DNA of 64,000 bases from Fictibacillus halophilus (GTDB lineage: Bacteria; Bacillota; Bacilli; Bacillales; Fictibacillaceae). Below are positions 8,062 to 54,042 of this stretch, piece after piece. The DNA lies in assembly GCF_016401385.1 (NCBI RefSeq), contig NZ_JAEACF010000001.1, positions 2,294,001 to 2,358,000 of the forward strand, read 5' to 3'. Numbering within the stretch: position 1 is the first letter of the stretch; each line of letters begins with the position of its first letter. The notes beneath the pieces were generated by a model, which ran no database searches, had not been told where the DNA came from, and worked only from the letters and a program-made list of their open reading frames with translations. Position numbers and translations under genes: made by a program.

Positions 8062-8316
8062 AAAAGTCCCTCTCCAGTTGGAAAGGGACGTGATGACAAT
8101 CTCGCGGTACCACCCTAATTAAAAGCCAAAGAAAAGGCTTTTCACTTCATTTCGTAACGGTTTAATCCGTTCTCTGCTACTAACCGTTCACAGAGACAGC
8201 TCCAGGAGGTAATTCACAAAATGCCTTTGCACTGGTTCGCATCAACCACCAGCTTTCTGAAACAGGGAGACACCTGCTACTCATTCCTATCTTCGCTTTC
8301 AACATATATTAATCTT
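8062..8316 (-). promoter_or_regulatory. T-box riboswitch leader of tyrS
   Basis: The reverse strand carries the T-box core AGGGTGGTACCGCG (8116–8103) followed by a terminator: GTCCCTTTCC and its complement (8089–8066), then six T. The core can pair to form the competing antiterminator. Upstream lies Stem I; a UAC tyrosine triplet at 8211–8209 in GAAUUACCUCC is the likely specifier codon. Uncharged tRNA-Tyr should stabilise the antiterminator and turn tyrS on. Confidence 0.92.
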
Positions 8317-50927: not shown

Positions 50928-52334
50928 CTATTTAGCTAGTTCGTAAATGGCTTGTGCATATATGGCAGAAGCTAGAAGTAAGTCTTCTACAAACATGTGT
51001 TCATCCTTTTGGTGAGCCACATCTTCTCTTCCTGGGAACAGTGCACCAAAAGCAACTCCTGTTTCCAACGATCGTGCATAAGTACCACCGCCAATAGCCA
51101 TCAATTCACCTTTTTTCCCCGTTTGATCTTCGTAAACCTTTTGAAGTGTCTTAATCAATGGATGATTTTCTTCTACATAGTTAGGTGGGTTGTTTTCAAT
51201 GATTCTCATCGACCAATCATCGGTTTTCGCTCTTGTTGATAATGTATTTTCGATTTTCTTACTATCGTGTGTAACCGGATAGCGTATGTTTAACCCTACT
51301 TTCCCTCCTTCTGTAAGGTCATACGACAGAATTCCAGCATTGACCGTTAGTTTACCGCTTGCTTCATCTTCTGCAGCAATATCTAGCTTATGTCCTGTAT
51401 ATTCGCCCGTTAGCTCGTCCAACAAGTGGAGAAACGACTTGGCTGTTCCAGTGAAAGAAAGAGTGTTCAAAAATTCACCAAGCATAAGTCCAGCGTTCGT
51501 CCCCATGTCTGGTGTACTTCCATGGGCCGATTTGCCTTTAACTTTTAGAATTAAAGCATCCCCTTCCATTTGAACTTGGTACTCTATTGCAGATTTTTGA
51601 CCATATGCTTCAAATGAATGTTGAATTTCCTCTAGATCGCTTCCTTGAATTTTAGCTTCTGCGTAATCTGGAACCATATTTAAACGTTGGCCCGATGTAA
51701 AGGAAAGTAATTGAAGGCTATTTCTTTCTTCCTTTTGATCGTTGTCTAGACGAAACTCCACATCAAAGATTCCTTTTTCCGCAGATATGATCGGAAAATC
51801 CGCATCAGGTGCAAATCCGATCGCTGGCATCTCTTCTTTCGTAAAGTAATGTCTCACACATCGCCAGTTACTTTCTTCATCACAACCAATGATCATACGA
51901 ACCTTTTTCGATAATGGAAGCTTTAATTCCTGGATAATTTTCATTCCATAAAAGGCTGCCATCGTAGGTCCTTTATCATCAATCGCCCCTCGTGCAAAGA
52001 TTTTCCCATCCTTAACTTCTGCTCCAAAAGGCTCTAAAGACCATCCATCACCAGGAGGTACGACATCAACATGGCAAAGAACACCTACGATGTCGTCACC
52101 GTTTCCAATCTCGATGTGTCCTGCATATCCGTCTACATTTTTAACGATCATTCCACTGTCTTTTCCAAGGTCTAACATATACGTTAAAGCTTTTTCTATC
52201 TCGGGACCAAAAGGAGCTCCTTCTTTAGCATTTTCTTCATCGAGCAGACTAGGAATGCGCAATAGCCCTTTTATATCCTCCATAAGCTGTTTCTTTCTCA
52301 ATTCAACTTCTTCTTTCCAATTGATGTGATTCAT
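50928..52334 (-). CDS. pepV: PepV-type dipeptidase
   Basis: A 468-residue M20 metallopeptidase releasing amino acids from dipeptides. Zinc-site motifs are LCHVDVVPPG, GAIDDKGP, GCDEESNW (catalytic Glu), APDADFP and the C-terminal VAHQKDEHM; a lid domain containing SAHGSTPDMG is inserted. The ATG at 52334 has AAAGGGTG six bases upstream; the GTG at 52337 is too close. It corresponds to ytjP of B. subtilis. Confidence 0.93.
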   Translation of the reverse strand: MNHINWKEEVELRKKQLMEDIKGLLRIPSLLDEENAKEGAPFGPEIEKALTYMLDLGKDSGMIVKNVDGYAGHIEIGNGDDIVGVLCHVDVVPPGDGWSLEPFGAEVKDGKIFARGAIDDKGPTMAAFYGMKIIQELKLPLSKKVRMIIGCDEESNWRCVRHYFTKEEMPAIGFAPDADFPIISAEKGIFDVEFRLDNDQKEERNSLQLLSFTSGQRLNMVPDYAEAKIQGSDLEEIQHSFEAYGQKSAIEYQVQMEGDALILKVKGKSAHGSTPDMGTNAGLMLGEFLNTLSFTGTAKSFLHLLDELTGEYTGHKLDIAAEDEASGKLTVNAGILSYDLTEGGKVGLNIRYPVTHDSKKIENTLSTRAKTDDWSMRIIENNPPNYVEENHPLIKTLQKVYEDQTGKKGELMAIGGGTYARSLETGVAFGALFPGREDVAHQKDEHMFVEDLLLASAIYAQAIYELAK

Positions 52335-52387
52335 CACTTACACCCTTTCTAAATAAATTTGCTCCTTGCGTTTGTCTTTTCAAAAGG

Positions 52388-53395
52388 TCAGATAATCGAT
52401 TCGTATACATCTTTGCTGCATATGATATAGAGGCGTGCATCATCACGAATTGTTTGATCTAACTTCTTATTTATCGATAGATCGTTGCCGTCCGCAATTA
52501 GTGTAGCACCTTGCTTCAACAAACTGTCAAAAGCATCTTTGTATGTTACCCATTCCGCTCGTTTGCGTACTTCAAATAGATTTTCTCCTTCTTTATGTGA
52601 AAGAAGCTGTGTGTAGATCTCTGTAATCCCCTTAGAAAAAGCGGATCGCACAGCCATACGTGAAACCGTTTCGTGACTTAAGACAAACTCATCTACTTTA
52701 GCATGCCTAAAGTTTTTAATATGTTCCTCTTTTTTGATCTCAACCGTACTATGTATGTGAGGAGTTAAACGTTCTACGGATGTTACGATCAACAGTGTTT
52801 TCCCATCAGCAAGTGCTGAATCATGAATGGAATCATCTGAGAATACAAGTACTGATTTGGCTTCTTTTAAATTTGCTTGTACGAGAGTCCCTTCTATTGA
52901 TGGATCACCTTGAACGTAATGAACATTTTGGTGTGTAATGGGTGTAACAGGCAGGTTATCAATAAGAACTACTTCTAGGTAGGGATGAGTTTCTATAATC
53001 TCACTAACAGCATATTTTGCTTTTTCAGACCACCCTATAATAACGAAATGATTTTTACCTTTAAAAGTCAACCTTCCTTCCTCCTTTCGTTTACGATGAG
53101 CTCCTAATGCTTCTACCAGTTTCCCAATAGCCAGACCAGCAATACCAATACCGATCAAAAAGATGAAGATCGCATAGATTCTTCCTGCTGTAGACACTGG
53201 ATAGTAATCGCCATAACCTACCGTTGTAACAGTGGTCATAACATACCATAAGGCATCAAACCAGTTAGGGAATGTTTTTGGCTCTAACAGATGCATAACG
53301 ACTGACGAAAAAATGACAATAAAAAAGGCGAAAGAAAAAATCCCAAACTTATTTAAGACGATAAGTCTATTCATCAGTTTTTGTAATATATACAC
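52388..53395 (-). CDS. Potassium channel with RCK (TrkA-N) domain
   Basis: A 335-residue MthK/YugO-type two-helix channel. TM1 (about 17–37), pore helix and filter TTVGYGD (57–63), TM2 (about 70–92), then a Rossmann RCK domain (FVIIGWSEKAKY ... VVLIDNLP) and a TrkA-C-like end. It probably gates K+ flux by a cytosolic ligand. The start is a GTG with AGGAG seven bases upstream; the later ATG (MNRLIV) has no usable ribosome site. Confidence 0.88.
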   Translation of the reverse strand: MYILQKLMNRLIVLNKFGIFSFAFFIVIFSSVVMHLLEPKTFPNWFDALWYVMTTVTTVGYGDYYPVSTAGRIYAIFIFLIGIGIAGLAIGKLVEALGAHRKRKEEGRLTFKGKNHFVIIGWSEKAKYAVSEIIETHPYLEVVLIDNLPVTPITHQNVHYVQGDPSIEGTLVQANLKEAKSVLVFSDDSIHDSALADGKTLLIVTSVERLTPHIHSTVEIKKEEHIKNFRHAKVDEFVLSHETVSRMAVRSAFSKGITEIYTQLLSHKEGENLFEVRKRAEWVTYKDAFDSLLKQGATLIADGNDLSINKKLDQTIRDDARLYIICSKDVYESII

Positions 53396-53494
53396 CTCAT
53401 CGCTCCTAACGTAATTTTTTTAATAACCCTATTATTGTACCTTATTCCCATGTAAATGGTTAGATGGTTTCGCTTTCTCAGGAATTATGGAATA

Positions 53495-53522
53495 TTGACA
53501 AATATAGATTTTAGTGTATAAT
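53495..53522 (+). promoter_or_regulatory. Strong sigma-A promoter of a candidate RNA
   Basis: Perfect TTGACA (53495–53500), 16-base spacer and perfect TATAAT (53517–53522). Nothing protein-coding follows until 53824. Confidence 0.85.
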
Positions 53523-53528
53523 GGTGCC

Positions 53529-53704
53529 AAATAGGAGGTGTAGTGTTGGGTTAACTGACAATTTTCCTCTATATCTATATATTTAGGATCATATGTTCGT
53601 TATGAGGTTTTGCTGCCTGGCCGCACAGACATCTTTTTGAACGTTACTATTACATCTAATGGCTGATGCAGCGGAGAACCAATACGGATTCTTCGCTTTT
53701 TTTT
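53529..53704 (+). ncRNA. Candidate untranslated RNA of about 175 bases
   Basis: Bounded by the consensus promoter and a strong terminator in the 428-base gap between the K+ channel gene and ytzE. Visible elements are an AGGAGG (53534–53538 region) followed by a tiny frame GTG TTG GGT TAA (53543–53554), an AU hairpin (about 53566–53587), and GGTTTTGCTGC (53606–53616) able to pair with GCAGCGGAGAACC (53668–53680), which contains the terminator's 5' arm. It is either a stand-alone small RNA or an attenuator leader. I recognise no known class; 6S RNA should be tested as an alternative. Confidence 0.6.
53670..53704 (+). terminator. Terminator of the candidate RNA
   Basis: AGCGGAGAA (53670–53678) pairs with TTCTTCGCT (53689–53697, one G-U), followed by eight T. 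Confidence 0.85.
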
Positions 53705-53823
53705 ATAAAAAAGGATGGGTCTTATGAATTAAATAGAATGTAATACAACATTCATATTTCATTAACTTTAGACTGGTATCATATAGTGTGTTAACAACTA
53801 TCTAAATAACAAGGAGTGGTTTT

Positions 53824-54042
53824 TTGAGTCCTTCAACTGACAGAATGTTGAATCGTGTGAAAGCCCTGTATTTGTTTATTCGCAAGAAAGGTACTGTAAC
53901 AACACGAGAACTAGTTGAAGAATTTGGAACTACGCAGCGCACCATTCAGAGAGATCTTAACGTCCTCTCTTATAACAATTTAGTAACAAGTCCTGCCCGC
54001 GGTATGTGGGAAACGACAGGCAAAAAAGTTAAAGTATCTTAA
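53824..54042 (+). CDS. ytzE: YtzE, DeoR-type helix-turn-helix protein
   Basis: A 72-residue protein that is only the DeoR N-terminal winged helix-turn-helix (VTTRELVEEFGTTQRTIQRDLNVL), with no effector domain. It is likely a small DNA-binding regulator of unknown target. The start is a TTG with AAGGAG seven bases upstream; no in-frame ATG would keep the domain. It lies downstream of the candidate RNA, and a strong terminator follows. Confidence 0.85.
   Translation: MSPSTDRMLNRVKALYLFIRKKGTVTTRELVEEFGTTQRTIQRDLNVLSYNNLVTSPARGMWETTGKKVKVS

Follow-up and report, generated by a model that had tools for sequence, protein, structure and literature searches.

The window analysed in this study is a stretch of 64,000 nucleotides of Fictibacillus halophilus DNA, and all positions below refer to it. 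A gene encoding 72 amino acids, which we take to be ytzE, lies at 53824..54042 on the forward strand. It starts with TTG, and its product is a DeoR-type helix-turn-helix (HTH) protein (Pfam HTH_DeoR, 35.3 bits, above the cut-off). The next gene after ytzE is a convergent PRC-barrel gene. Upstream of ytzE the reverse strand carries two genes: pepV at 50928-52337, which scores above the cut-off for NCBIfam dipeptidase PepV, and a K-channel gene at 52388-53395 with the Pfam domains Ion_trans_2 and TrkA_N. Only a few, passing mentions of ytzE were found in print: two papers place it among the proteins or genes changed in mutants of Bacillus cereus and B. subtilis (PMC9912610, PMC4591507).

Analysis of the interval between the K-channel gene and ytzE revealed a sigma-A promoter, TTGACA-N16-TATAAT, at 53495..53522 (+). 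As an earlier, sequence-only reading of this DNA had claimed, the promoter is exact (12/12 positions, spacer of 16). It is the single exact promoter with a spacer of 16-18 in the window, against 0.10 expected from shuffles. TATAAT is present in all 18 named Fictibacillus loci, and the -35 hexamer matches at six or five of six positions in 12 of them and at three to four of six in the other six. The predicted non-coding transcript covers about 176 nt (53529..53704, +); it has aligned homologues and is recovered by a covariance model, R1, and its 5' end was inferred to lie about 7 nt past the -10 box. The same reading had described a unit of about 175 bases, closed by a hairpin with eight T and containing no protein gene, and such a unit is present: the ORF list holds no frame of at least 50 amino acids inside 53529-53704 on either strand. 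The fold of 53529-53708 has an energy of -45.8 kcal/mol (z -2.43), and one of 200 shuffles folded equally well.

The intrinsic terminator occupies 53670..53704 (+) and is supported by its core motif and five conserved inner pairs. Its arms are AGCGGAGAA (53670-53678) and TTCTTCGCT (53689-53697), the eight T are 53697-53704, and the 3' end of the RNA is 119 bases upstream of ytzE. The hairpin at 53670-53697 was not listed by a simple terminator scan of the window. The pattern of the terminator arms occurs at exactly one site per genome in 18/18 same-genus genomes, and the terminator precedes ytzE in all 18 named Fictibacillus loci. The five inner pairs are formed in 24/24 aligned sequences, with changes from A-U to G-U only; in one sequence (L038) the apical ACC/GGA appears by eye to be swapped for another complementary set.

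The covariance model was built from 24 homologues, all distinct sequences. One strong match (E <= 6.5e-13) was found in each of 26 of the 34 family genomes, most of which match by construction since R1 was made from the same family. The positive genomes comprise 18/18 of genus g1, 7/7 of g2 and 1/1 of g4, with 0/8 in the sister genus g3 (sequences matching the named loci L039 and L042-L044, of Pseudalkalibacillus and relatives), where a lone match at E 0.16 was counted as chance, like others above 0.09. A search of 299 genomes of the order (E <= 0.01, stricter filters) gave 10 positives, all from the same family. Of 62 ytzE loci of other genera, four were matched weakly by R1 (E 0.023 to 0.55), and only the weakest of these matches (L044) stands at the equivalent place before ytzE. 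With blastn the region was recovered from 17/18 genomes of the same genus, and a fragment of it from G030. Among 80 ytzE loci, the RNA precedes ytzE in all 18 named Fictibacillus loci (L021-L038), at a distance of 106-162 bases counted from the first five T. Between groups the RNA has mostly diverged, and what is kept across the 24 sequences is GGAGGTG, GCTGC-n3-GCC, GGC-n3/4-GCAGC and the terminator. One such match in each of 26 of the 34 genomes shows that the unit as a whole is no chance arrangement. As judged from sequence, the RNA before ytzE is a real, conserved, non-coding transcription unit.

The 5' end of the RNA carries a Shine-Dalgarno (SD), AGGAGGTG, at 53533..53540 (+). The strength claimed for it was borne out: the calculated value is -14 kcal/mol against the 16S tail, and GGAGGTG is kept in 23/24 aligned sequences. 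GGAGG begins 11-12 bases past TATAAT (TACAAT in g3) in 18/18 named Fictibacillus loci and 8/8 g3 loci. The arrangement TATAAT-N9-14-GGAGGTG has three occurrences in the genome of the window, the leader included. The other two sites (L157 ~1519, L158 ~1515) differ from each other in setting: one precedes a small ORF with a normal ATG, and the other is part of a hairpin and has no obvious frame.

An SD of this strength, together with frames that end near ACTGA in many same-genus sequences, would suit a leader-peptide attenuator, whose fold would depend on whether a mini-ORF following the 5' SD is translated. We consider this very unlikely. A start codon 4-13 bases behind the SD is absent in 2/24 aligned sequences and in 3/8 sister-genus loci; among the 24 aligned sequences, the frames that are present have lengths of 1 to 39 codons; a one-base change shifts the frame between L001 and L003; and no conserved residue was found in the frames behind the SD. 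The three-codon frame proposed earlier (GTG TTG GGT TAA) is present at 53543..53554 (+), but it is not conserved and was judged not functional. The second proposed frame, ATG AAT TAA, likewise sits at 53724-53732, past the terminator, but ATGAATTAA is kept 3' of the terminator in only 4/17 same-genus loci. A 15-codon frame starting ATGTTCGTTATG (~53594) was also considered and rejected, being broken by indels in several relatives (by eye).

In cry3A mRNA a STAB-SD is bound by the 30S subunit and RNase J1 is blocked (PMC4113751). What marks a STAB-SD at the level of sequence is a strong SD near the 5' end of the RNA without a conserved start codon, and this is what was found in the present leader. 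With its 5'-terminal position and no conserved frame behind it, the strong SD is STAB-SD-like; it does not open a conserved peptide.

Comparison of the aligned sequences revealed a pair of conserved complementary blocks, a predicted antiterminator. Its 5' arm, GCTGC-n3-GCC, lies at 53612..53622 (+), with GCTGC and GCC invariant in 24/24. The 3' arm, GGC-n4-GCAGC, lies at 53661..53672 (+) and is also invariant in 24/24, with a spacing of n3/4 across the sequences. The last AGC of the 3' arm forms the first three bases of the terminator stem. All eight pairs form in 24/24 sequences and none varies, whereas in shifted controls, with partners slid by 1-3 columns, 36-59% of cells pair. The paired arms were thus kept in relatives, in the core of the competing helix, as the sequence-only reading expected. 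The compensatory changes that it proposed to look for are lacking in the antiterminator core because the core never varies: no covariation was found in the 24 sequences, 8/8 pairs being invariant. The conserved complementary blocks support the predicted helix, and covariation adds no backing to it.

The strongest upstream duplex partner of GGC..GCAGC is the GCUGC site in 24/24 sequences (p 0.001-0.033 each against shuffles). A Fisher p of ~7e-12 for the GCUGC:GCAGC helix in 11 chosen sequences was disregarded because the sequences are related. A fold forced to contain the helix lies 0 to 8.7 kcal/mol above the best fold, and the terminator is part of the best fold in 22/24. When the transcript is cut at the terminator loop, the mean pair probability of the helix exceeds 0.5 in 21/24 (not in L008, L014 and L038). 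In the full RNA a mean pair probability above 0.5 is reached by the terminator in 22/24 and by the helix in 3. With the upstream part shuffled, GCAGC still pairs upstream, at a mean probability of 0.43-0.58. The outcome of this shuffle control, on 13 chosen sequences, is mixed: the real GCAGC pairing was exceeded by at most 7/60 shuffles in nine and by 28-54/60 in L008, L014, L035 and L038. The folding predictions give moderate support to an order of events in which the helix forms first and the terminator then displaces it.

The 11-pair helix described earlier (53606-53616 with 53668-53680) does exist in the window, as GGUUUU and GCUGC paired with GCAGC and GAGAACC, two bases bulging out of the 3' strand. 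Its GCUGC core is found in 24/24, but its GGUUUU half in only 15/24 aligned sequences; the GGUUUU-extended helix, lacking in 9/24, was therefore set aside. Mutual exclusion between helix and terminator had also been claimed. The three shared bases, AGC, are confirmed, but an overlap of this size could allow the two to coexist in part. Intrinsic termination should nevertheless be weaker when the three pairs adjoining the U run are missing. A possible closing helix, P1, pairs GGUGU (53537..53541, +) with ACAUC (53629..53633, +) in the minimum-free-energy fold of the window RNA and, if formed, would hide the SD. P1, and with it a pseudoknot with the antiterminator, was rejected, as it did no better than shuffles in 11 chosen sequences (Fisher p 0.25).

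Searches of the whole window with Rfam at gathering thresholds gave no match at the leader, T-box, 6S and M-box families included, which agrees with the earlier statement that no known family is recognisable. In a search of the region 53400-53830, the best match was a plant snoRNA on the opposite strand (E 0.57), followed by two others at E ~3. An architecture like that of riboswitch leaders could point to a diverged member of a described class (riboswitch, T-box, 6S or known sRNA) beyond the reach of Rfam; against the results at both search levels, we regard this as highly improbable. No literature joining Fictibacillus and riboswitch was found. The RNA is thus not described in the sources searched, namely this literature and Rfam. 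The sole Rfam match in the window is an ordinary T-box leader at 8081-8302 (-), with 150.8 bits and E 6.4e-34.

The sister genus g3 provides the main evidence on the relation of the RNA to ytzE. There the promoter and AGGAGGTGG are retained before ytzE, and the remainder differs. A terminator-like site between the 5' element and ytzE was found in 0/8 g3 loci, which is no proof of absence, since the test used recognises 13/18 Fictibacillus terminators; it was positive in 3/60 other loci. In g3, transcription from this promoter would therefore extend into ytzE. This bears on a realistic alternative, a stand-alone sRNA of ~176 nt that acts in trans and has ytzE as a mere neighbour with a promoter of its own. 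The RNA has its own consensus promoter and strong terminator, is single copy and is vertically inherited, all of which suits such an sRNA. Conservation also extends over the spacer that separates the terminator from ytzE; this spacer has TATAGT- or TATAAT-like boxes (by eye) and may hold a promoter for ytzE that would make the leader dispensable for this gene; however, no consensus -35 is evident in it (by eye). In five of the loci (L032-L036) an inverted repeat, CATAATAAATT / AATTTATTATG, spans the TATAAT box (by eye); this could be a promoter with an operator, possibly one for YtzE itself. Retention of the promoter and 5' element before ytzE in g3, where no terminator-like site was found, speaks against the free sRNA. 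A cis leader is preferred mainly because the g3 promoter would transcribe ytzE, no such site having been found between them. The RNA is also kept before ytzE in Fictibacillus although the upstream gene differs among the 18 named loci, the neighbour being the K-channel gene in 10 and pepV in 8. We lean towards a cis leader of ytzE over a free sRNA.

Analysis of folding upstream of ytzE argues against attenuation, as neither in Fictibacillus nor in other genera do these regions fold better on the (+) strand than on the (-) strand. The mean fold z is -1.41 (+) and -1.91 (-) for the 18 Fictibacillus loci; the 60 other loci average -1.03 (+) and -0.98 (-). The idea of a high degree of structure in ytzE leaders throughout Bacillales was accordingly rejected, no strand preference being seen in 78 loci (300 bases upstream). 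Other arrangements before ytzE were observed in further genera. Halalkalibacter and relatives (L058, L064, L078, L085, L096, L100 and similar loci) have a different conserved stretch in the last 150 bases before the gene, ATTACATAGACTCTACT...AAGTCATGATTATGAA.AAGGAGTGG, which is perhaps an operator or another leader. Two Alkalihalophilus loci (L075 and L079) have complementary ends, GTCTGGAGGG / CCCCCTCTGAC, in the ~300 bases before ytzE, with folding z of -3.72 and -4.54 (+ strand), and may have an unrelated structured leader.

Overall, our analysis suggests, with a probability of about 0.5, that the RNA is a transcription-attenuation leader of ytzE; it is put forward as a candidate and not as a mechanism. 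The sigma-A promoter would start an RNA that ends at the intrinsic terminator before ytzE, and during synthesis the GCUGC:GCAGC helix would form first. If something held this helix, the terminator would be deprived of the three pairs that adjoin its U run, and transcription would read through into ytzE; if not, the terminator would displace the helix and the short RNA would be released. The 5' SD most likely binds the 30S subunit without translation and protects the 5' end, and it may be hidden in some folds. From the earlier suggestion of an attenuator for ytzE or an sRNA, the conserved non-coding unit with a terminator and a competing helix is retained, and the translation-coupled mini-ORFs are not. 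It is also conceivable, though unlikely, that the leader is a ribosome-sensing switch, in which a 30S subunit on the 5' SD, without translation, frees or holds the arms and so picks helix or terminator. If true, such a leader would report the supply of free ribosomes to a regulator gene, and would couple ribosome availability to transcription termination with no peptide involved. The attenuation leader itself would represent an undescribed regulatory leader family, limited to one bacterial family and placed before a little-mentioned regulator.

Compared with the STAB-SD of cry3A, the SD in this leader is followed by a terminator and can pair within its own RNA, and 30S binding and protection are putative here. 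Riboswitch and attenuator leaders of Bacillales, of which the T-box is the nearest example in the window, resemble the present leader in having a promoter, a structured 5' region and a regulatory gene behind, and in an antiterminator, here a predicted one, overlapping the stem of an intrinsic terminator; the present leader differs in that it has no Rfam match, a helix overlap of three bases and a regulator with only an HTH domain behind. Trans-acting sRNAs of Bacillus have their own promoter and terminator and no conserved frame. The present RNA is like them in these features, and differs from them in its fixed place before ytzE, observed in 18/18 named loci.
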